Below, piece by piece: positions 1-17,077 of a stretch of DNA of 17,077 nt. Each line of letters begins with the position of its first letter. Within the stretch, counting starts at the first letter, position 1. This DNA comes from a candidate division TA06 bacterium SM23_40. Lineage in GTDB: Bacteria > LJUI01 > SM1-40. The stretch covers positions 1-17,077 of the forward strand of contig LJUI01000054.1 in the NCBI GenBank assembly GCA_001303705.1, in the 5' to 3' direction. The notes under the pieces were generated by a model. That model was not told the origin of the DNA. It saw nothing but the letters and a program-made list of their open reading frames with translations, and searched no databases. The translations under genes were made by a program, and so were the position numbers.

Positions 1-291
1 GGTATGGACAGGGGCGCTCTCTCTGGCCGCCGACTCGACGCGCATCAGCCTCATGAACTCCGTGAACCCTACGCCTGCCTGGCAGCGGCCCTCGCAGGCC
101 CGGCAGGTGAGGCAGGACCAGAGATCCGACTCGCCAGCGACTTCCTCACCCAATCCGACGATGGCGCGCTCAACGGCAAGACGAGGAGAGAATCGACAGC
201 CGACCCGGGAGAGCGGGCAGCTCCCCGTGCAGATACCGCACTCGAGACAGCGGTATGCCTTCGTCTGCCCGATGATCTCCTCGTAGGTCAT
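1..291 (-). CDS. HdrC-type iron-sulfur protein, N-terminal part (cut by window edge; probably HdrC-HdrB/HdrD-like)
   Basis: The frame opens at ATG 291-289 and runs without a stop to base 1, giving 97 residues; the 3' part lies outside the window. Two [4Fe-4S] CxxCxxCxxxC motifs are visible: CLECGICTGSC at residues 15-25 and CLTCRACEGRC at residues 60-70. This is the HdrC arrangement, relaying electrons between HdrA and an HdrB-type catalytic subunit. The sequence resembles the first 90 residues of the HdrC-HdrB fusion at 11333-12475 (shared YxCLECGxCTGxCPxSR and LWSCLTCRxC), so the missing part is probably a CCG-domain HdrB half; that is an inference. The start overlaps the stop of mvhD as ATGA, with GGAGG nine bases upstream. 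HdrC-type identity is firm, but a simple HdrC cannot be excluded. Confidence 0.85.
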   Translation of the reverse strand, partial: MTYEEIIGQTKAYRCLECGICTGSCPLSRVGCRFSPRLAVERAIVGLGEEVAGESDLWSCLTCRACEGRCQAGVGFTEFMRLMRVESAARESAPVHT

Positions 292-758
292 CGCCGGGCG
301 CCTCCTGCCTCCTCGACTCCACCGGGAGTGCGGGAAGAGACCGATCTATCCTCCCTGCTCATGGGACCGAGGTCGCGGATCCTCTCGACAAACTCGGCCA
401 TTACCGCAGCAAACCTCCCGGCCTCGGCTGCGGATATCCATTCTAACCCCAGTCGCCTCTCGTCTATTCCCGCAGTCCGGGCCAGGCGGATTGTCATCTC
501 CATCATCTCCTGGCAGCGCTCATTGCCGTCGACGTAGTGGCAGTCACCTATATGACATCCCGTCACCAGAACACCATCGGCGCCCTGGCGAAATGCCTCG
601 AAGATAAGAGAAGCGCTCACCCTGCCGGAGCACATCGTCCGGATCAGCCTGACTGACGGGGGGTACTGGAGCCGGGACACGCCCGCGCTGTCAGCCCCCG
701 CGTATGAACACCAGTTGCAGGCGAAGACGATGATGTCAGGCTCCCAGTCCTCTCTCAT
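288..758 (-). CDS. mvhD: MvhD-type [2Fe-2S] electron-transfer subunit
   Basis: This 156-residue protein carries the full cysteine set of the MvhD/FlpD family: CNWC at residues 14-17, MCSGRV (Cys43), and GCHIGDCHY (Cys68 and Cys73). In methanogens MvhD holds a [2Fe-2S] cluster and passes electrons from a hydrogenase or formate dehydrogenase to HdrA. No such dehydrogenase is in the window, so the donor is unknown. The start ATG overlaps the stop of the upstream hdrA as ATGA, with GGGAGGGG just upstream, and the stop overlaps the next gene as ATGA, so translation is probably coupled. The last 25 residues are Gly/Arg/Glu-rich and look disordered. It is a paralogue of 12463-12933 and of the C-terminal domain of 7119-9641. 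Confidence 0.93.
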   Translation of the reverse strand: MREDWEPDIIVFACNWCSYAGADSAGVSRLQYPPSVRLIRTMCSGRVSASLIFEAFRQGADGVLVTGCHIGDCHYVDGNERCQEMMEMTIRLARTAGIDERRLGLEWISAAEAGRFAAVMAEFVERIRDLGPMSREDRSVSSRTPGGVEEAGGARR

Positions 759-2536
759 CGTACCCCTCCCGCGCTCCCCCCCTCGTCACCGTGGCGGGCT
801 CCGGCCAACAGGGCGGGACGAGCCGCGCGCAGCATGGCACGGATCTGCTCGTCTGTGAAATGGAAGAGGGTCATCGCGCCACTCGGGCATCGCGCGGCAC
901 AGACGCCGCACCCCTTGCACAACACTTGATTGACCCTAGCGACCGCAAGTCCCCGTTCGTTCTCCACCATTTCGATCGCCGCATATCTGCAGAGGTCTCG
1001 GCACAGGCCGCAGCCACGACAGATCGCTTCATCGATATCGACCACTACCGGCTCGACGACGACCTTGCCATTGACGAGCGGCACCAGAGCGCGCGAGGCC
1101 GCAGCCGAAGCCTGCGCACACGCCTCGGATATCCGACACGGCCATCGGGCGGCGCCACAGAGGAACATACCCTCGGTCGCGAAGTCGACCGGCCGCAGCT
1201 TCACGTGCGCCTCGAGGAAAAAGCCATCCTTGTCGACCGGGACTCTGAGCATCTGACCCAGGGACCGCGCATCCGGACGGGCCACCATCGGCGTCGACAG
1301 GACGATCAGATCGGCAGGAAGAAGGACCTCCTCTCCCAGCAGCAAATCGTATATCCGCACACCCCGGCTATCGACGAGAGGGGGACGCTCTGGATCGTAT
1401 CTGGCGAAGACGACTCCCGCCTCCCGTGCGCGCGCAAACCAGTCCTCGAACTCGGTGCCATAGCCCTGGATGTCGCGATAGAGCACGTACACGCTCCTCC
1501 CGCTGTCTTCCTCGACAAGCATTGAGGCGTTCTTGATCGCGTTGGCACAACAGACACGGGAACAGTACTCGCGCTCGGGCAGCCTCGCCCCGACGCACTG
1601 GATCATGACGATGGTTCCGGCCTCGACAGACCCCTGGCTCATCCGGCGCGCAAGCTCGAGCTGTGTGATGACACGCTCCCCATCGTACCCGAACAGGCCG
1701 TGGGGCTCGAGCACGTCGGCCCCGGACGCGACCACGATGACGCCCGCTTCCAGTTCTCGCTCATCCCCGCCCGTGCGAACGGTGAGGACATAGTTGCCGA
1801 TGAATCCCCTGACACCTGTCAGCTCGGTAGCGGTCAGTACCTCGATGTGCCTGTGTTCGATCACCCGGGGGATGAACTCCTCGAGAACCTCGCGCGCCTC
1901 CCTGCCGGAAGGGTACAGACGGTAAAGACCCCGGAGCCGCCCGCCGAGGTCGGGCTCACGCTCGATGAGCACTGTATCGAATCCCGCATCTCCCAGATCG
2001 AGTGCCGCGTTCATGCCGGCGATCCCGCCCCCGATCACCACCGCTCTCCGGTCGACATCGACTTCAATCGGCTCCCTCGGCCCGAGCCTGGCCGCCTTGG
2101 CCACCGCCATTCGCACCAGCGCCGCCGCCTTCTTCGTCGCCCTCTCCTTATCATCCATATGGACCCAGGAGCACTGATTCCTGATGTTCGCCATTTCTAC
2201 GAGATAGGGATTGAGACCCGCCTCTCCACATACCTCGCGGAACAGAGGCTCGTGAGTCCTCGGGCTGCAGGCCGCGATGACAACTCTATTGAGGTTATGT
2301 TTGCGAATGGATTCGGATATTTCCTTCAGTCCGCTCTCCGAGCAGGCATACATCGTCGTCACCGAGTAGACGACCCCAGGGGATGCTCCGGCCTCCCTGG
2401 CCACAGCATCGACATCGAGAAACCCGGCTATGTTCGTGCCACAGTGGCAGACGAAAACACCGATCCTCAACTGATCGGCGCCTGCCTCCGCGGCAGATCT
2501 CAGACTCCCTGGTCCCATTTCTGTCCCCTGAGTCAC
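755..2536 (-). CDS. hdrA: HdrA-like FAD/iron-sulfur protein (second HdrA unit, no selenocysteine)
   Basis: This 593-residue HdrA homologue starts with the Cys-containing HdrA N-terminal domain (VFVCHCGTNIAG at 28-39, Cys65, Cys90, Cys122). An FAD-binding GGGIAGM follows at 169-175, then the iron-sulfur CVGAR...YCSRVCC motif at 314-330, and a C-terminal two-cluster ferredoxin (Cys506-516 and Cys540-550). It lacks the DCSI-U/C segment and the inserted ferredoxin found in the short HdrA just upstream, so the two genes look complementary and may work as one unit. The same domain set forms the second half of the fusion at 13016-17077. The first possible start is GTG 2536, overlapping the upstream stop as GTGA. 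ATG at 2518, seven codons in, has AGGGG at better spacing and may be the true start. Probable flavoprotein of an Hdr electron-bifurcating complex. Confidence 0.9.
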   Translation of the reverse strand: MTQGTEMGPGSLRSAAEAGADQLRIGVFVCHCGTNIAGFLDVDAVAREAGASPGVVYSVTTMYACSESGLKEISESIRKHNLNRVVIAACSPRTHEPLFREVCGEAGLNPYLVEMANIRNQCSWVHMDDKERATKKAAALVRMAVAKAARLGPREPIEVDVDRRAVVIGGGIAGMNAALDLGDAGFDTVLIEREPDLGGRLRGLYRLYPSGREAREVLEEFIPRVIEHRHIEVLTATELTGVRGFIGNYVLTVRTGGDERELEAGVIVVASGADVLEPHGLFGYDGERVITQLELARRMSQGSVEAGTIVMIQCVGARLPEREYCSRVCCANAIKNASMLVEEDSGRSVYVLYRDIQGYGTEFEDWFARAREAGVVFARYDPERPPLVDSRGVRIYDLLLGEEVLLPADLIVLSTPMVARPDARSLGQMLRVPVDKDGFFLEAHVKLRPVDFATEGMFLCGAARWPCRISEACAQASAAASRALVPLVNGKVVVEPVVVDIDEAICRGCGLCRDLCRYAAIEMVENERGLAVARVNQVLCKGCGVCAARCPSGAMTLFHFTDEQIRAMLRAARPALLAGARHGDEGGSAGGVR

Positions 2537-3825
2537 TCCCGGGCCCCTGTCAGGGCCTTGAAGGCCTTGGCCGCAGCGGCGGATCCCCCTGTGACCGAAT
2601 CGGGGATGTCGAGCGGCTCACGGCAATAGCCGCAGGCGTAGATACCCGGTACCGATGCCTGTACCGGCGACAGCGGGTCGCTCGCCACGAACCCATAGGC
2701 GTCGAGATCGACTCCCAGTCGCCGGGCCAGATCCCCGATCCCCGCGCTCGGCACGAGCGCCGTGCAGAGGACGACCAGATCGGCAGTGCCCTCGCCCAGC
2801 CAACCGGTGTCCGTATCTTCGTACCGGATCGACAATCGATGCTCTTTTCCGGCGACGACCTCCGCCACGCGACCGCGAATGTACGCTACGTCGTACATCT
2901 CTCTCGCCCGGCGTAGATATTCCTGAAACCCTTTCCCCCCGGCCCTGAGATCCATGTAGTAGATCGTAGACCTCACCTCGGGATCGTGTTCGGCGGCGAG
3001 AATCGCGGCCTTCGTCGCATACATGCAGCAGACAGCCGAGCAGTAGGGGCTGTTGCGCCGATCCCGGGATCCGACACACTGGATGAATCCGATCCGACGC
3101 GCATGGCCGCCATCGGAAGGCCGGCAGACGTGCCCTCCGGTCGGGCCCGCGGAGGACGTGAGCCGCTCCAACTGGAGGGACGTTATCACATCCGGGTGCC
3201 GCCCGAACCCGTACTCGCCCATCGGCGTGGGATCGAAGCAATCATACCCGACCGCAACGATGATCGCGCCGACCTCTAACGTCACTGTTTCATCCTGTTG
3301 TTCGAAATCGATGGCCCCGATGTCGCAGAACCGGAGGCATACGCCGCATTTCTGTTTCTCCAGATAGATACAGTGCTCGCGATCGATAGTGAAGGCCGCA
3401 GGCACCCCTTGATCGAAGTAACTGTAGATGGCCTTGCGGTTGGCAAGACCCATCTCGAACTCATCCGGCACATCCACCGGGCACTTCTCTGCGCAGCGGC
3501 CACAGGCAGTACACAGATCTTCCTTCACGTACCGCGCGTGCTTCCGCACGGTGACGGTGAACTGGCCGACTGAACCGCTGATCCCTTCTACCTCGCTCAG
3601 CGTGAGCAGCTCGATGTTCGGATGTCGACCGACATCCGCCAGCTTCGGCGCAAGTATTCAGATGGAGCAGTCATTCGTGGGGAATGTCTTCGCCAATTGC
3701 GCCATGCGTCCCCCGATAGAAGGATTCTTCTCGACGAGAAATACTCTCACCCCTCTATCGGCGAGATCGAGCGACGCCTGGATCCCGGCTATGCCGCCAC
3801 CGATGACCAGCACACTCCCTTCCAT
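2533..3825 (-). CDS. hdrA: Selenocysteine-containing short HdrA (in-frame TGA at 3660-3658)
   Basis: Read through one TGA, the frame from ATG 3825 to TGA 2533 gives 430 residues. Residues 1-55 form the FAD Rossmann start ([13 protein letters not shown] at 9-21), ending [12 protein letters not shown] is codon 56 and is followed directly by [15 protein letters not shown]. This matches the HdrA family block DCSI-[C or U]-I..PK..DVGRHP, where Cys or Sec is known. Downstream are a two-cluster inserted ferredoxin (about 105-170) and CVGSR...YCSAVCC (about 250-267). It lacks both the N-terminal Cys domain and the C-terminal ferredoxin, which the next gene supplies. An in-frame TGA lies six codons before the ATG, so the start is bounded; AGGGGG sits four bases before it. 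A conventional gene caller will truncate this gene to the part after the TGA. Confidence 0.9.
3620..3660 (-). promoter_or_regulatory. Candidate SECIS element of the short hdrA, with its UGA codon
   Basis: On the minus strand the in-frame TGA (3660-3658) is followed after 20 bases by GGATGTCGGTCGACATCC (3637-3620). This folds as a perfect 7-bp stem, extendable by one C-G pair, with a GGUC apical loop. Bacterial SECIS elements lie directly downstream of the UGA inside the coding region, and the E. coli fdhF element also shows GGUC at its apex. Loop-to-UGA distance here is about 27 bases. The hairpin overlaps codons for the conserved DVGRHP motif, so protein conservation alone could account for part of it. 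I did not identify the bulged U with certainty. Confidence 0.6.
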
Positions 3826-4182: not shown

Positions 4183-5109
4183 TCAGAGAGGAAGATGCTT
4201 CAGGTTGTCTTTGTAGATACCGGCCGACTTCTGGAACAGGTCTTTCTCCTCCGCCGCCATCTCGACCTCGACGATCTTCTCCACTCCCTTTTTGCCGAGA
4301 ACCGTCGGCACGCCGATGAATACGCCTTTCACCCCGTACTCGCCTTCGAGATAGCACGAGACCGGCAATAGCCGGCGGGTACCCTTGAGCAGACATTCCA
4401 ACATCTGCACTATGGCGGCCGCGGGAGCATAGTATGCACTCCCCGTCTTGAGGAGGCCGACGATCTCTCCCCCCGCCTTTCTCGTCCTCTGGACGATCGC
4501 ATCGAGGCGGTCCTTGGGAATGAGTTGCGGAACGGGCACGCCGGACACACTCGCCGAACTCGCGAGCGGCACCATCGAGTCTCCGTGGCCGCCCAGCACC
4601 ATGGCCTGCACATCGACACTGGAGATGCCCAGCTCCATGCCGATGAACGTCCGGAATCTGGATGTGTCGAGGATCCCTGCCATCCCGAACACCCGATTCT
4701 TGGGAAAACCCGTCAGTTTGTAGGCATAGTAGGACATCACATCCAGCGGATTCGTCACCATCAGGAGCATGCAGTCCGGCGCGTGTTTGATGACGTGATC
4801 CATGCAACTCTTCACGACTTCTGCGTTGGCCTTCAGTAAATCTTCCCGCGACATGCCCGGCTTGCGGGCGAATCCTGCCGTCATCACGACAACGTCAGAG
4901 CCCTTCATATCCTTGAAGTCATTCGTGCCGACAGTGCTGCATCCGAACCCCACGACCGGCCCTGACTCATAGAGGTCGAGGCATTTGCCCTGAGGCACGC
5001 CCTCAATGATATCGACGACGACGACATCGCACATCTCTTTCGCAGCAAGAAGGACTGCGGTCGTGGCACCCACATGTCCGCCACCGATGATGCTCACCTT
5101 CTTCTCCAT
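4183..5109 (-). CDS. mdh: Malate dehydrogenase (LDH-like type)
   Basis: This 308-residue protein is of normal length for the LDH-like malate dehydrogenases and would interconvert malate and oxaloacetate with NAD in the cytoplasm. Visible features are the nucleotide-binding GGGHVGATTA at 9-18 and the acidic Asp33 at the end of the second strand, typical of NAD preference. The substrate-binding Arg82 and Arg88 lie in ARKPGMSR (Arg82 position favours malate over lactate). Asp123 in TNPLDV, Arg151 region TSRFR, and the catalytic His175 in GGHGDSM are also present. ATG 5109 is chosen because AGAAGGAGG lies six bases upstream; the GTG two codons earlier would have no spacing. It follows the LarA homologue by about 70 bp. 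Its place between Hdr modules suggests, but does not prove, coupling of malate oxidation to Hdr electron transfer. Confidence 0.95.
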   Translation of the reverse strand: MEKKVSIIGGGHVGATTAVLLAAKEMCDVVVVDIIEGVPQGKCLDLYESGPVVGFGCSTVGTNDFKDMKGSDVVVMTAGFARKPGMSREDLLKANAEVVKSCMDHVIKHAPDCMLLMVTNPLDVMSYYAYKLTGFPKNRVFGMAGILDTSRFRTFIGMELGISSVDVQAMVLGGHGDSMVPLASSASVSGVPVPQLIPKDRLDAIVQRTRKAGGEIVGLLKTGSAYYAPAAAIVQMLECLLKGTRRLLPVSCYLEGEYGVKGVFIGVPTVLGKKGVEKIVEVEMAAEEKDLFQKSAGIYKDNLKHLPL

Positions 5110-5121
5110 TGACACCCTCCT

Positions 5122-7118: not shown

Positions 7119-9641
7119 TCACGTCTTGGCGACCTCGACCGGCTCCTTCTTCGCTTTCTTGGGCTTCTTCTTCGGCTTCTTCGCCTTCTCCGTCAGAATC
7201 CGTTTCGTCTCCTCTACTTCTTCCGGGGTGACGGCCTTACGTAGCTCCTCTATCTCGCGCATTACCTTGGCGAACTTCTGCCCTTCAGCCGCACTGATCC
7301 ACTCCAGCTGAAGCCGCTCTGGCCGGATCCCCTCTCTCTCGAGCTTATCCCAGAGCTTCTCCACCCGCCGCTGCGTCCAGCGGTTCGCATCGATGTAGTG
7401 GCAGTCGGCGAAGTGGCACCCGGAGACGAGGACCAGTGGCGCACCCTTACGAAATGCGTGGAGTACAAACTCCTGGTCCACGCGGCCACTGCACATGGTC
7501 CGAATCAGGCGCGCGTTCGGCGGGTACTGGAGGCGCGAGATCCCGGCGAAGTCCCCGCCGGCGTAAGAACACCAGTTGCAGGCGAAGACGACGATCTTCT
7601 CCATGGGATCTTCCTCGAGGATCGCATCGATCTGGGCGATGATCTGAGCGTCCTCGAAGTGACGCATCGTAATCGCCCCGAACGGGCACTCGGCCGCACA
7701 CGTGCCGCATCCGGCACACGATGCCTCGATGACGACAGCAGGAGTGCGTTTCTCTTTGTCGGCGATGATCGCATGATAGGGACAGACGTTGGCACAGATG
7801 GCGCAGCCTGTACAGATCTCGGGATCGATGACCGATGTGATTGCCTCGACGCTTATGCGCCCCTGACTCATGAGGATGTTGGCCCGGGCCGCCGCCGCTG
7901 AGGCCTGGGTGACGCTGTCCTTGATATCCTTGGGAGCCTCGCTGCACCCCGCAAAGAAGACGCCACGCGTAGGCGCATCAACAGGCAGAAGCTTGGGGTG
8001 GGCCTCCATGAAGAATCCATCGGATGTCGCCGAGAGCGTGAACAGTCCTTTGAGACTCTCCATGTCCCGTCTCGGCTCGACCCCCACGGAGAGGATCACC
8101 ATATCCGCGCGATGCTGCTCGAGCTGGCCGCTCGTCGTATCTTCCACACTCAGGATCAGGTCCTTTGTTGCCGGATCCTCCTCCACTTCGCCAGGCAGGC
8201 CCCTGATATACTGCACCCCGAGTGCCTTGCTCCTCTGATACAGATCTTCGAATCCCTTGCCGAACGCTCTGATATCCATGTAGAACACCTTGATATCCGT
8301 CTCAGGCCAGTGATCCTTGATCAGCAGACTGTCCTTTACTGTGTTCATACAGCAGACGTTGCTGCAGTACGGCTTGCCCCGCTGCTGCGATCGGGACCCG
8401 ACACACTGGATGAACGCGACCCTCTCCGGCTGGCGCCGATCGGTCGGGCGCACAAGATGCCCCTCGGTGGGTCCGCCCGAGTTGATGAGCCGCTCGAACT
8501 CGAGACTGGTGATCACGTTCTCGTATCTCGTATATCCGTACTCATCCTGCTCGGTCGGATCGTACACATCCATCCCGGTGGCGACGATGACCGTCCCGAC
8601 GTTGAGGGTAACTTCCCGGTCGGTCATGTCATAGTCGATGCACTCTTTTTCGCACTTTTCGAGACACTTCCCACAAGCTATCGGATTGTGCCCCAGGCAG
8701 GCCTCCATATCGATGACGAACGCCGAAGGAACGGCCTGGGGAAATGGCTGGTAGATCGCCTTCCTCGTGGAGAGACCGATGTTAAATTTATCGGGGACGA
8801 CGACCGGACAGACTTCCAGGCAGTCTCCGCACGCGGTGCATTCTTTCTCATCGACGTAGCGGGCACGCCGACGCACCGTCACGTTGAAGTTCCCGACGAA
8901 CCCCGTTGTTGCTGCGACTTCGCTGTAGGTCAGAAGCTCGATCCGTGGATGTCGACCGACATCCGTCATCTTCGGACCGAGTATTCATATGGAACAGTCC
9001 ATCGTGGGATATGTCTTGTCGATCTGAGCCATGATCCCCCCGATGGATGGCTCCTTCTCCACGAGATAGACCTGATATCCGGCGTTCGCCAGGTCGAGCG
9101 ATGCCTGTATGCCCGCGATCCCACCCCCGATGACAAGGGCCTTCCGCTCTACCGGCACCTCGAGTTCTTTCTGCTCTCTGAGGAGTGCCGCCCGCCACAC
9201 CGCCATCTTGACGAGGTCCATCGCCTTGCGTGTCGCCGCCTCCGGTTCATTGATGTGTACCCAGCTACAGTGTTCGCGGAGGTTGGCCATCTCCAGAAGG
9301 TACGGGTTGAGGCCCGCCTGCTGAATCGCAGCACGAAACGTCGGCTCGTGCATGCGAGGAGAACACGATGCGACGACGACCCGGTTCAGGTTATGCTCAC
9401 GGATGTGCTGCTTGATGACCTCCTGCCCTGGCTCAGAACACGTATACTTGTCGTTGCTTGCGATGACAACATGGGGCAACCCCTGAGCGAACTCGGTGAC
9501 AACACCGCAGTCCACCGTGCCAGCGATGTTCCTGCCGCAATCGCAAACATAGACGCCGATACGCAGCTCCTCACCGTGATTCCCATCGTCCAACGAAATC
9601 ACCTCCTCAGGCCTTCGAGCTCCCACGCTCACCTCGTACAT
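7119..9641 (-). CDS. hdrA: Selenocysteine-containing HdrA-MvhD fusion (in-frame TGA at 8987-8985)
   Basis: Reading through one TGA gives 840 residues. In order: the HdrA N-terminal Cys domain ([12 protein letters not shown], about 30-150), FAD motif [13 protein letters not shown] (172-184), TMDCSI ending at 218, TGA as codon 219, then [15 protein letters not shown]. Next come an inserted two-cluster ferredoxin (about 268-335), CVGSR...YCSNVCC (413-431), a C-terminal ferredoxin (610-655), an MvhD domain ([19 protein letters not shown]; about 680-800), and a Lys-rich tail ([13 protein letters not shown]). This joins the bifurcating flavin subunit and its electron entry adaptor in one chain. It follows hdrB and hdrC, so these three genes probably form one HdrABC complex. 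ATG 9641 has a weak ribosome site; TTG 9593 has a perfect GGAGGTGA five bases upstream and may be the true start. Confidence 0.92.
8947..8987 (-). promoter_or_regulatory. Candidate SECIS element of hdrA-mvhD, with its UGA codon
   Basis: The in-frame TGA (8987-8985) is followed after 20 bases by the hairpin GGATGTCGGTCGACATCC (8964-8947), identical in sequence and spacing to the one in the short hdrA at 3620-3637. It has a 7-bp perfect stem and a GGUC loop, at the distance expected of bacterial SECIS elements. Most of the 38 bases after the two TGA codons agree between the genes. The protein motif DVGRHP is encoded here, so selection on protein and RNA cannot be separated from two paralogues alone. 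Confidence 0.6.
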
Positions 9642-9695: not shown

Positions 9696-10574
9696 TCAGC
9701 AGACGCGAGCGAGAATGCTGTCAACCTTGACACGATGCAGGTCCAGACCCAGCTCTTCAATGCTGAATCCCTGAGCTATGCCCAACAACTGGCAGTAGTA
9801 GATGACCGGTATCTCGTACTTCTCATCGAACTTCCGTGCCACCATGATCTGGCCGAGATCGAATGAACTGAAACATGTGGGGCAGATGAGCCCCATGCAA
9901 TCTGCTCCGGCCTGTGAAATCGAGGCGAATATATCCCGCGTCATCTGGATCGGTATCTCATCGCTCAGGCACCCTTTCCCGCAACAGAGGAGACGCTCCC
10001 GGTGGTTGATCGGAGTCGCCCCTGTCGCCTCCACGAGTCGCTCCAGTATCTCCGGGTAATCGGCGTCGTCGACGTGCATGATCTGAGAGGGCTTCAACAG
10101 ATGACAGCCGTAATGTATTGCCACTTTGATGTCATTGAGCGGCCTGGTCACGCTCTCGCGAATGCGGTCTACGCCGACGTCATCACGCAATACCTCTACG
10201 AGATGCCTCACCCTCGTGGTCCCCTCATACCGCATTCCGATCCTCGCCAGCCGCCGATTTATCCTCTCCTTGAGTTCCTCGTCCTCGGCCAGGAGGAAAG
10301 ACGCCTCCCGCAGCGTGGAGGTGCACCCACTGCACGCGGTCATCACATCGACATCCTCCTCCTCCGCGACTGCGAGATTCCGCGCCGCCACTGCCAGCCA
10401 CTGCTCCTTGTTCCTCGCCTTGAAGTAGATCGGATCAGGGCAGCAGGTGAAGCGGTCAATATCGACCAGCGGGACTTCGAGCCTCCCCAGCGACCTCCGT
10501 ATCGATGCCTCCATCTGGGGGTACTTCGCGGGAATCATACATCCCCAGAAGGGCGCGATCTTCCGTTCATTCAT
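9696..10574 (-). CDS. hdrB: Heterodisulfide reductase subunit HdrB-like
   Basis: This 292-residue protein has two cysteine-rich CCG domains, as in HdrB, which binds two noncubane [4Fe-4S] clusters and reduces disulfide substrates in methanogens. The first set is Cys12, Cys44-Cys45 and CSGC at 81-84; the second is Cys157 (YGCH), CCGKGC at 197-202 and CPTC at 231-234. All five ligands of each set are present, so it looks catalytically competent. In a bacterium the substrate is probably not CoM-S-S-CoB and remains unknown. ATG overlaps the hdrC stop as ATGA, with GGAG upstream, so hdrC and hdrB are likely translationally coupled. Confidence 0.95.
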   Translation of the reverse strand: MNERKIAPFWGCMIPAKYPQMEASIRRSLGRLEVPLVDIDRFTCCPDPIYFKARNKEQWLAVAARNLAVAEEEDVDVMTACSGCTSTLREASFLLAEDEELKERINRRLARIGMRYEGTTRVRHLVEVLRDDVGVDRIRESVTRPLNDIKVAIHYGCHLLKPSQIMHVDDADYPEILERLVEATGATPINHRERLLCCGKGCLSDEIPIQMTRDIFASISQAGADCMGLICPTCFSSFDLGQIMVARKFDEKYEIPVIYYCQLLGIAQGFSIEELGLDLHRVKVDSILARVC

Positions 10575-11248
10575 CTGTTGCTCCGCTTTGTCGTGCGTGG
10601 CTTCTTTCTTCCGACCTTCTTCGCGGACGCCTTCCCGCCGGATGCCTTCTTCGAAGGCTTCTTCTCCACCCCTGCCCTCTTTTCCGGCCTCACCTTCCCT
10701 GGACCCTCCTGAGAGCCCGCCTTCGAACCCAAGGGCTCCAGAACCTCGCCCGCCCCACCACCAGACGGCACTTCTCCTTCTTCGGGGTCCGCGAGAATCG
10801 CCGTTAATTCCTCGACCGGCACTCTAGGTATGGGATCGAGGCCCAGTTTCTCACGGCGCCTGTTCACCGACTCCGAGAGGACCGCGCTGTGTCCTCTAGA
10901 GCTTATCATCTCGGCGAACTTATTCACCTCATCGGGCAGCACCCCTCTCTCGGCGGCCATGTTCTTCAGGGCGATAATCACCTCAATCGGCCGCACGTCC
11001 TGGGGGCACCGCTCGTAGCATGTATAGCAATTGGTGCACAGCCAGATTACCGAATCAGCGCCGATCAGCTCCTCCTCCTGACCGAGCAGTGTCTTGAGCA
11101 GAATCGTGCGCGGGTTGAAGTCCTCTGAATATCGCGCCGCCGGGCAACCCGCGACGCAGGCGCCGCACTGAAGACAGTAATTGTGGTGGTCACCGCCGAT
11201 CGTACCATCCAGCTGTTCCCGGAACGTAAACGCTATCTTACTGCCCAT
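10571..11248 (-). CDS. hdrC: Heterodisulfide reductase subunit HdrC-like, with Lys-rich tail
   Basis: The 225-residue protein has two [4Fe-4S] motifs typical of HdrC, CLQCGACVAGC at 25-35 and CTNCYTCYERC at 71-81, and would carry electrons from HdrA to HdrB. The conserved HdrC core ends near residue 150. Residues about 170-225 form a low-complexity, strongly basic Gly/Lys/Arg/Ser extension not normally seen in HdrC. A similar Lys-rich tail ends the HdrA-MvhD protein two genes downstream. The start is ATG 11248 with GGAG upstream, 84 bp after the HdrC-HdrB fusion. Confidence 0.93.
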   Translation of the reverse strand: MGSKIAFTFREQLDGTIGGDHHNYCLQCGACVAGCPAARYSEDFNPRTILLKTLLGQEEELIGADSVIWLCTNCYTCYERCPQDVRPIEVIIALKNMAAERGVLPDEVNKFAEMISSRGHSAVLSESVNRRREKLGLDPIPRVPVEELTAILADPEEGEVPSGGGAGEVLEPLGSKAGSQEGPGKVRPEKRAGVEKKPSKKASGGKASAKKVGRKKPRTTKRSNR

Positions 11249-11332: not shown

Positions 11333-12475
11333 TCAACCGACGACGCCCCCGATGAGAGCCATAAGATCAGTTATTTCGAGCCGGCCCTCTATCTCCTTGC
11401 CGCGTTCGGACTGTGCACACCGAAAGTGGATCTGACACTTGGGGCATGCCGTGACGAGGACCTCTGCTCCGGTAGCCGCCGCCTCCTTCAGGCGCATATC
11501 CTGTAAACGCTTGCTGAACGCCGTGCAGTTGGTCCATGACCCGACTCCACAGCAGATTGCATTCTTTCGATTCTTCGCCATCTCCAGTAGTTCGAGGCCA
11601 CCGATTGCACCGAGGGCCTGTCTCGGCTCATCGTATACACCCAGATGTCTGCCGAGCCGACACGGGTCCTGGTACGTCACGCCCTTCTGCAATGCGCCGA
11701 GCTCCAACTGACCCTCACCAAGCCATCCCGCCATGAGCTCACTGATGTGGACAAACTCGAATCCGGGGTCACCGAATAGTCGCGGGATCTCCACCCTGAA
11801 CACCTCGTAGCACTCCGGGCAGGAGAAGATGACCCGCTTTGCCCCGGCAGTCTCGAGCAGCGCGAGGTTGTGCCGTGTCAGCCGCTTGAAGTTCTCTACG
11901 TCGCCGCTCCACAACAGATCGTGTCCGCAGCACCGCTCGTCGGGCAGGACGGCTGGCGTGATGCCCATCGCATTCAGCACCTTGACGACGCCTCTGGCAC
12001 CGCTCAACGTATCGACCCCGAGTTCGGAGAAGAAAGCGTCGAAGTACGGCAGGCAGCCGACGAAGTACACATCCTCTCCTGCCGCTGACGTGCTGAGTGA
12101 GCCATCCAGCCATTCCAGTCTATTCTGTTGCAGTTCGGGAGCTGTCTGTATCCGCATCAGAGACTGTATCGCCCCACCGTGGGAGCAGGCACCCTCCTCG
12201 CCGACACCGTGAGCGCCCTCGCGCACAACCTTGACGAGCTCGATGTAGTCGATCGCCGCCGGGCAGCGGAGATCGCACTGCCGGCAGGTCAGGCACGACC
12301 AGAGCGACTGATCGTGATAGAGGTTATCGTATGAGTTGCGCGCGGCTCGTACAACGATCGATCGAGGCGAATACCTACCGTCGTACCGAGAGACCGGACA
12401 GATGCCGGTGCATTTGCCACACTCCAGGCAGGCATACGCCCTGGTCTTCCTCACTGCCTCGGCTATTGCTTCCAT
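11333..12475 (-). CDS. hdrD: HdrC-HdrB fusion (HdrD-like iron-sulfur protein)
   Basis: The 380-residue protein joins an HdrC-like part and an HdrB-like part, as in HdrD. Two [4Fe-4S] motifs are at 16-26 (CLECGKCTGIC) and 61-71 (CLTCRQCDLRC). Two CCG domains follow: Cys141, CCG 182-184 and CPEC 219-222; then PC 271-272, CCG 308-310 and CPKC 344-347. Such proteins form disulfide-reductase or related electron-output subunits (HdrD, GlpC, LldE-type families). It is encoded directly after mvhD (13-bp overlap), with AAGGA upstream of ATG 12475. That suggests it is the output partner of the HdrA-GltD-HdrA fusion. The gene at 1-291 looks like its paralogue. Confidence 0.92.
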   Translation of the reverse strand: MEAIAEAVRKTRAYACLECGKCTGICPVSRYDGRYSPRSIVVRAARNSYDNLYHDQSLWSCLTCRQCDLRCPAAIDYIELVKVVREGAHGVGEEGACSHGGAIQSLMRIQTAPELQQNRLEWLDGSLSTSAAGEDVYFVGCLPYFDAFFSELGVDTLSGARGVVKVLNAMGITPAVLPDERCCGHDLLWSGDVENFKRLTRHNLALLETAGAKRVIFSCPECYEVFRVEIPRLFGDPGFEFVHISELMAGWLGEGQLELGALQKGVTYQDPCRLGRHLGVYDEPRQALGAIGGLELLEMAKNRKNAICCGVGSWTNCTAFSKRLQDMRLKEAAATGAEVLVTACPKCQIHFRCAQSERGKEIEGRLEITDLMALIGGVVG

Positions 12476-12933
12476 GACGCTTCCTTCTCCTCATCGCTTG
12501 CCGACCGGATGCCGGCCAGCGGGCTCCTCCCCACCTTCTTCACATCGGCGACGAAGTCCCTTATGACCTGGGCCCACTTCGGCGCCTCGGCGGCCGATAT
12601 GCGCTCCAGACGCAGTCGTTCCTTCTCCAGGCCGAGGAGGTGCACAAGCTGCTCAACCTTCTCATACTGATCGCCAGCCCGCCTGGCACCGAACAGGTAG
12701 TGGCAGTCCTCAATATGGCATCCCGACACGAGCACCCCATCAGCCCCCAACTCAAATGCCTTCAGGACAAATGACGGGTTGATCCGTCCGGCACACATGA
12801 CGCGAATGACACGCACATTGGATGGATACTGCATCCGTCCAACGCCTGCACTGTCCGCCGCGGGATAGCTGCACCAGTTGCAGGCAAATGCTACGATCTT
12901 CGGCTCGAATTCTTCCGATACTTCAGCTCCCAC
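12463..12933 (-). CDS. mvhD: MvhD-type [2Fe-2S] electron-transfer subunit
   Basis: This protein has the MvhD cysteine set: CNWC, MCAGRI (the usual Ser is Ala), and GCHIEDCHY. I choose GTG 12933 as start because GGGGAGG lies seven bases upstream and the product is then 156 residues, exactly the length of the paralogue at 288-758. The frame stays open back to GTG 13008, which would add 25 residues of non-conserved sequence without a good ribosome site. It lies between the HdrA fusion gene and the HdrC-HdrB fusion and would feed electrons into that complex. Confidence 0.9.
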   Translation of the reverse strand: MGAEVSEEFEPKIVAFACNWCSYPAADSAGVGRMQYPSNVRVIRVMCAGRINPSFVLKAFELGADGVLVSGCHIEDCHYLFGARRAGDQYEKVEQLVHLLGLEKERLRLERISAAEAPKWAQVIRDFVADVKKVGRSPLAGIRSASDEEKEASWKQ

Positions 12934-13015
12934 CGATCGACCTCCCCGGGAGTAATCGCTGTCGTTCAATACATCGCTATACGTTGGCTCAGGCGAGTCT
13001 GCTTTCACTCGGTCT

Positions 13016-16000
13016 CTATCCTACGAGCATGGCCTCGACCATGGTCTCGATCTGCTCATCGGTGAAGTGACGGATCTGGGCTGCACCGCTGGGGCAGACT
13101 GAAGCGCAGGTCCCGCACCCTTTGCAGAGCGCCTCGTTCACCTTAGCGACGAGCCTGCCATCCTCCAGCTCCACAACTTCAATCGCATGGAACTCACACA
13201 CTTCAGCGCAGGTGCCGCACCCTCGACACCTCATCTCATCGATGATCGACGTGATCGGCTCGAGGGTGATCGTATCCCGGGCCAGAAGCGAACCGACACG
13301 CGACGCGGCTGCCGAGGCTTGCGCAATGGAATCTGCAATGTCCTTAGGCGACTGCGCACATCCGCAGAGGAAGATGCCTTCTGTCTGAGTATCGACAGGA
13401 CCGAACTTCGGGTGAACTTCGAGAAAAAATCCGTCGACACTCCGCGGGATCTTGAGCATTGTATGGAGCATCGCCGTCTCCTCCTCGCGCGGCACCATCC
13501 CCAGTGACAGCACTACTGCGTCGACGTCGAGCTCCAAGTCGGTCTCGAGCGATCGTTCGTGAATGATGACTTTCGCCGCGCGCCCATCCCCCTCAACCCT
13601 TGGCGGTTCCTCAGGCCAGTAGCGGATGAACAGCACCCCGAGACGTCTCGCATCCCGGTACATCTCCTCAGCCCCACGCGAGTACACCCTGATATCGCGG
13701 TGGAGCACGACGACATTCACGCCACGACGACGCAGCTCGATGGCCTGCTTCAACATTGCGTGACAACAGTACCGGGAGCACTCGGGATTCCCTTTCTCAC
13801 CCCTCGAGCCCACACACTGGACATAGGCAACAGTGCGAACAGGCCCCCCCGCGATCTCAACCGGGCCCTCCCCCCCGAGCATCTTCTCGAGCTCCATATT
13901 GGTGATGACATTGGGATAACGACCGTACCCATACTCATCCTCGGGCTTGTACAGGTCAGCTCCTACCCCCAGGACAATCGCGCCGATAGATAGCTTCTCC
14001 TTCTCGTCATTCGAGCGCCTGAGCGTAACATCGAAGTTGCCGACGAACCCTACAATGTCTTCCACTTCAGTCCCGGTGCGAACCTCAACTCCCAGAGAAT
14101 TCAGCTCCCTGACCTTCTCCTCGATGAGCTCGCGGCCTGACCGGCCACTCGGATAGAGTGAGGTGAGTTCCACCACTCTACCACCCAGCTGGTCGGCCTT
14201 CTCGACAAGGTAAACCTTGAAGTCCCTGGCGGCCAGATCGATCGCCGTCTGGATGCCGGAGATCCCCCCGCCAACGACCAGGACATCGTGCCCGACCTCC
14301 AGATCCCTTGGCGCCAGCGGGTCGAGCAGCCGTGCTCTGGCGACAGACATCCGGATCAGATCAGCGGCCTTGCGAGTCGCCGCCTCCGGCTCGGCCTGAT
14401 GCACCCAGGAACATTGATCGCGGATGTTCGCCATCTCGAACAGAAATGGGTTGAGACCGACCTTGGCGCAGGTCTCGCGGAAGATCGGTTCGTGAGTCCG
14501 CGGGGTGCATGCGGCGACCACGACCCGGTTCAGACCATGCTCGCGAATCGCATCCTGAATCTTCCGCTGGGTCGTCTCGGCGCAGGCAAAGAGTACTTCC
14601 TCGATATGGGCGACACCGGGCAGACTCTCCATGCGCTCGACAAGGCCGGGCACATCGACGACCGCCGCGATGTTCAGGCCGCAGTCGCAGACGAATATTC
14701 CGACCCGCGGCTCCTCGGCCAGCTCGAGCGGTGGGATCTCCACCTTCTCCGGCACCACACGCTCGCCAAGCACATGGCGCGCCGCGAGAGCCGCCACACC
14801 CGACGCCTCGGCAATCGAATCGGTGATATCCTTTGGCCCGGTGGCACACCCTGCCAGATAGATACCCGGCCTCGTCGAGTCGAGCGGGTACCAGACATCG
14901 TCGCGGCACTTGAAGAACGCATCGGTGCCGAGCTCAATTCCCAACACCGTCCCGAGGTCTGCCGTCCTCTCCGGCGGCACCAGGGCGGAGGCGAGCACGG
15001 CCATATCGACCCGCATGGACTCAATCCTGGCGCGCTCGGTGTCCTCATAGTGGATGAAGAGATCGCCGGTCTCCGGGTCTTCCTCTATCTTTGATGGCTT
15101 TCCGCGTATATATCGTGTCTTCGCCTCCGGATCCTTCGACCGGAGATAGAAGGCCTCAAATCCCTTGCCGAACGCCCGTATGTCCATATAGAAGATGATC
15201 GCCTCGGTTCCCGGCGCATGCTGCTCTAGCAGGAGGGCGTCCTTTATAGCATTCATGCAGCAGATGCGACTGCAGTAGTGGATCCCACGCTTCTCAGACC
15301 GCGAACCGACGCACTGGATGAACGCCACCCGCTCCGGCTCCTTCTCATCGCCGGGCCGTACCAGATGGCCACGGGTGGGGCCACTCGCGCTCAGCAGGCG
15401 CTCGAGCTCCAGTGAAGTGACCACGTTCTTGAATCTCTTGTACCCGTATTCACTGATCATCTCGGGATCATAGTAGTCGAGTCCGGTAGCGACGACCACC
15501 GCGCCCACATGGAGGTCGACGAACTCGTCTTCCATCCCATGCCGGATTGCATCGGGCTCGCACGCCGCAACACAGGCCTTGCACTCAGAGCACCCGGCGC
15601 AGTTGAGACACCGCTTCGCCTCAGATACCGCCTCAGATACCGCCTGCTCCTCATCAAATCCGAGATCGACCTCGCGGAAATCACCGGCCCGCTCACCCAA
15701 CTCCAGCGTCGGCATCACCGCACGCGGCGCCTGTCCCACCCCCCTCGTATCGGGCTTCACATCCGTCTCAAACGGACCCTCACCCTCACGCCCCACCGCC
15801 ATATCCGCGCCACGCAGATACCGGTCAATCGATATCGCCGCCTTCCTCCCCTGCGCCATCGCCTCGATATACGTCCTCGGACCCGTAACCGCATCACCTC
15901 CCGCAAACACTCCGGAAACGCTCGTCGCAAGCGTAACGGGATCCGCAGCGATCGAACCCCACCGCGTAATCTCCAGATCAACACCCTCGCCAACACCCTC

Positions 16001-17077
16001 CAGATCCGGAGACTGGCTGATCGCCGGCACCACCATGTCGATCTCCATCCTGAACTCAGACCCCTCGATCGGTATCGGACGACGACGACCTGACTCGTCA
16101 GGCTCACCCAGCTCCATCCGCACACACTCCATCGCCACTACCTTCCCACCAGACCCGATCACCTTCGTCGGAAGCGTCAAATACTCGATCTTCACTCCCT
16201 CGTGCTCCGCCTCCACGATCTCACGCTCCATCGCTGGCATCTCAACTCGCGACCGCCGGTAGACGATGCTCACATCCTCGCACCCCAGCCGCAACAGCGT
16301 CCTCGCCGCGTCTATCGCCGCATTCCCTCCTCCGATCACCGCAGCTCGCTTCCCAACCCGCACCTTCTCGCCAAGATTCACCGAGCGCAGAAACTCAACC
16401 GCACCCCATACACCCTCCAGATCCTCACCATCGATCCCCAGCTTCCGGCTCACATGCGCCCCGAGACCGAGAAAGATCGCACCATACCCCTCAGCCACGA
16501 GCTCCTCGAGCGTGACCTCACGCCCGATCCGCGTGCCGAGCCTGAACTCCACTCCCAGCCTCTTCAACACATCGATCTCGCCCTCCAGTAGATCCCGCGG
16601 CAGCCGGTAGGAAGGAATCCCCACCGCAAGCATCCCGCCAAGCACCGGCAGAGCCTCGAACACCGTCACCCCATAGCCCCGGCGCCGCAGATCATAGGCC
16701 GCCACCAGACCGGCCGGACCTGACCCCACAATGGCCACCCGCTCCTCACGCTCCTCCGCGATCTCAAGATCCCACTCCAGATCGCTCTCACGGTCCGCGA
16801 CAAACCGCTTCAGAAAGTCGATCGCGATCGCCTCATCGATGGTCGCCCGCTCGCAGGCAGCTTCACACGGATGATGACAGACACGCCCGGTGATGCCCGG
16901 AAACGGGTTGCGCTCCCGCACCAGGGCCAGCGCCTCCCGATACTTCCCTGCCGAGATGAGGGCGGTGTATCCCTGCGCATTCACGTGCAGGGGACAGGCG
17001 GCCTGACAGGGCGGGGTGCCCTGACGGTCGATGACGAATTTGTTGGGAACGGCCTGAGGAAACGGCCGGTAGATGGC
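13016..17077 (-). CDS. HdrA-GltD-HdrA giant fusion flavoprotein (N-terminus outside window)
   Basis: The frame is open from the right edge to TAG 13016, giving 1353 visible residues (Ala at 17077 is number 1). Residues 1-18 are the middle of an HdrA ferredoxin region (AIYRPFPQAVPNKFVIDR). A GltD/NfnB-like module then interrupts it: Cys24, Cys28, CHHPCEAAC (67-75), FAD motif GSGPAG (118-123), NAD(P)H motif GGGNAA (249-254), and GGDAVTGP (393-400). HdrA resumes with a Cys cluster (490-506) and CVGSR...CSRICC (589-607). A second HdrA unit follows: N-terminal domain (792-920), FAD motif GGGISG (936-941), CVGSR...CSRYCC (1088-1105), and a ferredoxin (1284-1328). It is probably an NAD(P)H-linked bifurcating core, by analogy with GltD-family enzymes. 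Conventional callers will start it at GTG 16984, which is only an internal codon. Confidence 0.92.
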   Translation of the reverse strand, partial: AIYRPFPQAVPNKFVIDRQGTPPCQAACPLHVNAQGYTALISAGKYREALALVRERNPFPGITGRVCHHPCEAACERATIDEAIAIDFLKRFVADRESDLEWDLEIAEEREERVAIVGSGPAGLVAAYDLRRRGYGVTVFEALPVLGGMLAVGIPSYRLPRDLLEGEIDVLKRLGVEFRLGTRIGREVTLEELVAEGYGAIFLGLGAHVSRKLGIDGEDLEGVWGAVEFLRSVNLGEKVRVGKRAAVIGGGNAAIDAARTLLRLGCEDVSIVYRRSRVEMPAMEREIVEAEHEGVKIEYLTLPTKVIGSGGKVVAMECVRMELGEPDESGRRRPIPIEGSEFRMEIDMVVPAISQSPDLEGVGEGVDLEITRWGSIAADPVTLATSVSGVFAGGDAVTGPRTYIEAMAQGRKAAISIDRYLRGADMAVGREGEGPFETDVKPDTRGVGQAPRAVMPTLELGERAGDFREVDLGFDEEQAVSEAVSEAKRCLNCAGCSECKACVAACEPDAIRHGMEDEFVDLHVGAVVVATGLDYYDPEMISEYGYKRFKNVVTSLELERLLSASGPTRGHLVRPGDEKEPERVAFIQCVGSRSEKRGIHYCSRICCMNAIKDALLLEQHAPGTEAIIFYMDIRAFGKGFEAFYLRSKDPEAKTRYIRGKPSKIEEDPETGDLFIHYEDTERARIESMRVDMAVLASALVPPERTADLGTVLGIELGTDAFFKCRDDVWYPLDSTRPGIYLAGCATGPKDITDSIAEASGVAALAARHVLGERVVPEKVEIPPLELAEEPRVGIFVCDCGLNIAAVVDVPGLVERMESLPGVAHIEEVLFACAETTQRKIQDAIREHGLNRVVVAACTPRTHEPIFRETCAKVGLNPFLFEMANIRDQCSWVHQAEPEAATRKAADLIRMSVARARLLDPLAPRDLEVGHDVLVVGGGISGIQTAIDLAARDFKVYLVEKADQLGGRVVELTSLYPSGRSGRELIEEKVRELNSLGVEVRTGTEVEDIVGFVGNFDVTLRRSNDEKEKLSIGAIVLGVGADLYKPEDEYGYGRYPNVITNMELEKMLGGEGPVEIAGGPVRTVAYVQCVGSRGEKGNPECSRYCCHAMLKQAIELRRRGVNVVVLHRDIRVYSRGAEEMYRDARRLGVLFIRYWPEEPPRVEGDGRAAKVIIHERSLETDLELDVDAVVLSLGMVPREEETAMLHTMLKIPRSVDGFFLEVHPKFGPVDTQTEGIFLCGCAQSPKDIADSIAQASAAASRVGSLLARDTITLEPITSIIDEMRCRGCGTCAEVCEFHAIEVVELEDGRLVAKVNEALCKGCGTCASVCPSGAAQIRHFTDEQIETMVEAMLVG
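15616..15639. repeat. Two-copy 12-bp tandem repeat in the fusion gene
   Basis: CGCCTCAGATAC occurs twice in direct succession. On the coding strand it writes AVSEAVSEA in the linker between the GltD module and the resumed HdrA Cys cluster. It looks like a recent slippage duplication in a tolerant linker. Confidence 0.8.

Follow-up and report, generated by a model that had tools for sequence, protein, structure and literature searches.

The genome of candidate division TA06 bacterium SM23_40 carries a gene for a fusion of HdrA2 and MvhD whose frame is interrupted by a TGA, and the question that this locus raises is whether the gene is broken or whether the TGA is read as selenocysteine (Sec). 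An earlier note on the 17,077-nucleotide stretch of contig LJUI01000054.1 analysed here (the window) had proposed the latter for the interval 8947-9641, which extends from the 3′ end of a SECIS-like stem-loop through to the start codon of the fusion. HdrA is an established CxxU selenoprotein family, having been counted among the bacterial selenoproteins since 2006 (PMC1794560) and being listed in a 2026 review as NF040770 with a CxxU motif and one Sec (PMC13188914), while several Sec-containing HdrA/HdrL proteins are encoded beside mvhD in Desulfobacterium autotrophicum HRM2 (PMC2702500). A claim of Sec is less surprising for this reason, and the fusion is an addition to a known class. Our analysis indicates that the gene, although apparently broken, is intact and that its TGA is very probably read as selenocysteine.

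The interrupted frame and the decoding of UGA

The features concerned are the following.

7119..9641, minus strand: HdrA2-MvhD fusion gene, 840 aa, with Sec219 predicted
8985..8987, minus strand: in-frame TGA at codon 219 of the fusion, which corresponds to Cys197 of 5ODC_A and closes the motif C216-S-I-U219 (CxxU)

The open reading frame upstream of the TGA runs on the minus strand from ATG 9641 to 8988, comprises 218 codons and ends in TYPTMDCSI, and past the TGA the frame remains open down to a terminal TGA at 7119, the read-through product being of 840 residues with a single internal TGA at residue 219. The description in the earlier note of a frame ending in TMDCSI and followed by a further match to HdrA was thereby confirmed. 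The ATG at 9641 represents the longest option for the start, and a later GTG or TTG start is possible. The joined product scores 1230.4 bits against the NCBIfam model NF040770 (HdrA2), which has a cut-off of 1100, and it matches the HdrA chain 5ODC_A (E=2e-243), its C-terminal part also matching the MvhD chain 5ODC_D (E=2e-40). Residue 219 falls without a gap over Cys197 of 5ODC_A (DCSI-TGA-ILGPKM versus DCSICILAPKM), so that the TGA is in frame at the second Cys of a CxxC motif; the alignment with Cys-type homologues that the note had suggested as a check thus bears out its placement of the TGA at the Cys/Sec position of HdrA.

The selenium machinery was sought in the same genome (2.88 Mb in 189 contigs, about 90% complete), as had also been suggested, and all of its parts were found. 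A tRNA-Sec gene whose anticodon is TCA (77.7 bits, with ARAGORN concurring) lies directly upstream of selD on contig C58, while selA and selB are adjacent on contig C5, and tRNA-Sec, selA, selB and selD all score over curated cut-offs. The selD gene itself contains an in-frame TGA just downstream of the tRNA-Sec gene, in the motif CAGUASK (L136:469-471, contig C58), and SelD of this genome is probably also a selenoprotein. A general reassignment or suppression of UGA, as Trp, Gly or Cys and with no involvement of Sec, would be compatible with the frame, which is open with TGA read as any sense codon. However, TGA is the terminator of ordinary genes in this genome, including the fusion and hdrB, the tRNAs inspected include tRNA-Trp with anticodon CCA and tRNA-Cys with anticodon GCA, and tRNA-Sec is present together with selA, selB and selD; on the strength of the terminators and tRNAs general code reassignment was rejected, and we consider it very improbable. 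A pattern scan for tRNAs with a UCA anticodon returned the tRNA-Sec and one other pattern match, located inside the hdr cluster of contig C35.

The stem-loop downstream of the TGA

The putative recoding signal lies a short distance past the TGA.

8947..8964, minus strand: bacterial SECIS stem-loop of the fusion, GGATGTC-GGTC-GACATCC

The corresponding hairpin, GGAUGUC-GGUC-GACAUCC, has 7 bp and a GGUC loop, its apical loop being situated 27 nt past the UGA. The 51-nt segment at the TGA folds with -22.4 kcal/mol (z -3.4), a value equalled by none of 200 shuffles. The published model of the bacterial SECIS prescribes a stem of 4-16 bp, a loop of 3-9 nt with an early G, a spacing of 16-37 nt and an MFE of at most -7.5 (PMC13188914), and the stem-loop of the fusion satisfies every one of these rules. 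As an Rfam search of positions 8800-9100 returned no matching SECIS family, the case for a SECIS rests on the folding, codon and covariation tests. Folds at 8967-9030, upstream of the TGA of the fusion, and at 3490-3557, in a shorter hdrA gene described below, were no better than shuffles.

Codon choice in the hairpin was analysed in 84 Sec fusions, with expectations derived from the codon usage of each gene itself. Asp was encoded by GAT in 83 of the 84 genes (37.6 expected), Gly by GGT in 83 (18.3 expected) and His by CAT in all 84 (37.4 expected), while the Val or Ala codon ended in C in 84 of 84 cases (31.8 expected) and the Arg codon was, again in 84 of 84, one that pairs with codon 9 (44.2 expected). 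At control positions the numbers were close to those expected, with GGT for the Gly three codons past the TGA in 18 genes versus 18.3, and CCC in 27 for Pro4 and in 43 for Pro13, versus 32.8 for each; the biggest deviation among the controls was that of Ile1, encoded by ATT in 35 genes versus 21.4 expected. One pair of the stem is variable, formed by the second base of codon 9 and the third base of codon 11, and it reads T-A in 49 genes, C-G in 26, T-G in 9 and C-A in none. On a protein tree built without the hairpin region the type of this pair changed at least 16 times, and of 13 independent pairs a mean of 9.6 showed a joint change of both sides and none a change in opposite senses (sign test, p about 0.002). 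Moreover, 6 or 7 of the 7 hairpin pairs are formed in 91 of 91 Sec genes, as compared to 1-4 in 21 Cys homologues. The codon and covariation data are direct evidence that the hairpin is maintained by selection as an RNA structure, and this SECIS of HdrA-MvhD is almost unchanged in dozens of distant bacteria. Nearly invariant and covarying, it overlies the protein motif D(V/A)GRHP, a combination that offers a simple signature by which genes of this type can be recognised in DNA.

A further explanation is that the locus encodes two separate proteins, the first terminating at the UGA and the second starting at an ATG at 8969, six codons downstream. That ATG is present and gene callers will annotate the locus in this manner; some termination at the UGA is usual in Sec genes and could give the short form when selenium is scarce. 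Two proteins would, however, split the FAD-binding thioredoxin-reductase domain and lose the conserved Cys column, and the distance between TGA and hairpin is fixed in orthologues, all of which renders this explanation highly unlikely. Insertion of Sec at residue 219, as claimed in the earlier note, is strongly supported by the machinery genes, the TGA in the Cys column, the spacing of the predicted SECIS and the selection on the hairpin.

Distribution of the TGA in relatives and paralogues

A set of 80 related loci was retrieved from a species-genome collection with query peptides that exclude the TGA position, and 79 of these, as well as five further genomes, carry TGA at the Sec column of the fusion, a proportion which is no estimate of the frequency of Cys fusions, as the ranking of the loci followed their resemblance to the Sec form and Cys fusions were under-sampled. 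The sole exception, Bathyarchaeota L095, is the one archaeal fusion seen among the loci and has TGT, and thus Cys, at this position and no hairpin. According to record titles the loci derive from Aminicenantes, Zixibacteria, Eisenbacteria, Marinimicrobia, Chloroflexi, Planctomycetota, Acidobacteriota, Desulfobacteraceae and others. Given this recurrence, and a lone in-frame stop in 840 codons that falls on a conserved Cys, the placement of the TGA is not due to chance. The other in-frame stops across 85 aligned fusions are two TAA near the C-terminus and TGA at residue 216 (in four) or at Cys35 (in one).

Sequencing error, or a pseudogene arising from a nonsense mutation, would be in keeping with a single stop in an otherwise intact frame, but it is contradicted by the recurrence of the TGA in separate assemblies from many phyla, by the fact that the only other recurrent stop is a second TGA at the neighbouring Cys, and by a downstream part that is homologous to its end, with the synonymous sites of the hairpin conserved. 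We regard this explanation as exceedingly improbable, and the pattern of a stop followed by unrelated sequence in relatives, which the earlier note had named as counter-evidence, was not what these loci display.

In the HdrA-MvhD gene of a Planctomycetota MAG a TGA (L087:756-758) stands in place of Cys35 in the N-terminal CxC motif, with a hairpin able to fold (-17 kcal/mol) behind it, and this may be a second Sec or else an error of assembly. Five orthologues, L072, L079, L093, L103 (= L137) and L138, read MDUAIU, with two TGA codons three codons apart, the upstream one being at the position of Cys194 (sites L072:1100-1111, L079:2462-2473, L093:503-514 and L103:2074-2085). In all five the second TGA is immediately followed by a further hairpin of 7 bp, whose loop of GAC or GUC lies 16 nt past the upstream UGA and a mere 7 nt past the downstream one, while just one of 86 single-TGA loci forms 7 pairs at this place. 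This suggests one SECIS per UGA, albeit from five genes, three of which are probably close relatives. The broader reading, to which we give an even chance, is that bacterial HdrA2-MvhD constitutes a Sec lineage, with Sec as trans [4Fe-4S] ligand, from which double-Sec UAIU branches arose with a tandem stem-loop for each UGA, the loops being 16 nt past the first and 27 nt past the second. A literature search of partial coverage found no two-Sec HdrA, and no earlier account of how widely the Sec clade of HdrA-MvhD extends or of a covariation analysis of this kind.

The window harbours a second Sec gene, which forms part of a tandem hdrA pair.

2533..3825, minus strand: short hdrA lacking the N-terminal domain, second Sec gene
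3658..3660, minus strand: in-frame TGA of the short hdrA, in the same alignment column as that of the fusion
3620..3637, minus strand: SECIS hairpin of the short hdrA, with a core identical to that of the fusion
755..2536, minus strand: hdrA with N-terminal domain and Glu at the Cys197 position

The 51-nt segment of the short hdrA folds less convincingly than that of the fusion (z -1.35). A tree of the HdrA core unites the Sec fusions in a single supported clade, to which the Cys fusion L095 and methanogen HdrA are adjacent; the short Sec-HdrA is placed apart from these, together with a further Sec-HdrA from contig C86 of this genome. The fusion and the short hdrA are thus separate paralogues, and although the earlier argument from two genes with TGA at the same position holds good against sequencing error, its description of them as independent has to be qualified, since they are paralogues in separate clades. 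They possibly have separate Sec histories, the starred branches of this quick tree with long branches forcing at least two Sec/Cys changes, and the identical hairpin core may reflect the common D(V/A)GRHP motif. The tandem pair at 755-3825 is complementary, with Sec in the member without the N-terminal domain and Glu in the member that has this domain, and the latter is by analogy the likely heterodimer partner of the short Sec-HdrA. On contig C86 of the same genome a second tandem hdrA(Sec)-hdrA-mvhD cluster (L128) was observed, in which mvhD reads CNWU with an in-frame TGA, at a known Sec position of MvhD.

The predicted complex and the proposed role of Sec219

We hold it to be highly probable, judging from sequence, that the fusion is a selenoprotein in which SelB, with Sec-tRNA(UCA), would use the stem-loop downstream of UGA 219 to insert selenocysteine, thereby giving a full HdrA2-MvhD subunit of a predicted soluble, HdrABC-type flavin-based electron-bifurcating complex. 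K409 and E356 have been described as the FAD-stabilising Lys and Glu in M. thermolithotrophicus HdrA (PMC12054007). In the structure of the methanogen complex the N-terminal [4Fe-4S] cluster of one HdrA receives Cys197 of the second HdrA as a ligand and lies on the route that electrons take to ferredoxin (PMC9012536). By homology with this residue Sec219 is probably a trans cluster ligand, which would stand in for Cys197 at the partner's cluster, on the ferredoxin branch; the fusion combines the N-terminal domain with Sec in the place of Cys197, and it may be envisaged as a symmetric dimer in which two Sec ligands cross over. It is also conceivable, though unlikely, that Sec219 is no cluster ligand and that CxxU forms a redox-active selenenylsulfide near the flavin. 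CxxU is a common thiol-redox arrangement, and Cys216 is conserved alongside and is itself TGA in five orthologues; against this stand the description of Cys197 as a residue of the partner subunit that ligates the cluster, and the finding that tandem or fused HdrA pairs share out the N-terminal domain and Cys197 between their members (PMC9012536), a complementarity also seen in the window. With Sec at the expected cross-subunit ligand site, Sec and Cys orthologues represent a natural test of the role of selenium in flavin-based electron bifurcation.

The fusion shares NF040770, CxxU and a bacterial-type Sec decoding with the known HdrA selenoproteins (PMC1794560, PMC13188914), but differs from these in that HdrA is here fused to MvhD, and its host is an uncultured bacterium to which no sampled genome is closer than the same domain. 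D. autotrophicum HRM2 (HdrA1, HdrA2 and HdrL) similarly has several Sec-HdrA paralogues per genome, mvhD nearby and HdrL-type GltD fusions, whereas in that organism mvhD adjoins hdrA as a gene of its own (PMC2702500). The HdrABC-MvhAGD complex (5ODC chains A and D) aligns with the HdrA and MvhD parts over their whole length, Cys197 corresponding to Sec219, yet has Cys instead of Sec, a separate MvhD and the hydrogenase subunits MvhA and MvhG. Type Ia HdrA (HdrA-MvhD) of methane-metabolising archaea has the same domain order with a C-terminal MvhD (PMC12054007), but is archaeal, and the archaeal fusion L095 has Cys and no hairpin. Automatic annotation splits the fusion and its relatives from many uncultured phyla into two false genes, which hides a central enzyme of energy metabolism.

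The gene neighbourhood comprises the following further features.

288..758, minus strand: mvhD-like gene, Cys form
4183-5115, same strand as the hdr clusters: malate dehydrogenase gene, TIGR01763 over cut-off
9696..10574, minus strand: hdrB, TIGR03288 at 320 bits, below the 345 cut-off
10571..11248, minus strand: hdrC, TIGR03290 at 113 bits, below the 160 cut-off
11333..12475, minus strand: HdrD/GlpC-like Fe-S oxidoreductase, with weak matches to several Fe-S oxidoreductase families
12463..13008, minus strand: mvhD-like gene, Cys form
13016..16984, minus strand: large GltD-HdrA-HdrA fusion, HdrL-like

The genes hdrB and hdrC adjoin the fusion directly upstream, which makes an HdrABC-MvhD complex likely, their best matches being HdrB and HdrC, each under the curated equivalog cut-off. 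No MvhAG or FdhAB partner genes were recognised among the window genes examined. Electrons from NAD(P)H could be brought in by the HdrL-like GltD fusion, the second HdrA unit of which has neither Cys nor Sec at the Cys197 position. The malate dehydrogenase gene is located between the two hdr clusters, and a link of these clusters with central carbon metabolism is possible.
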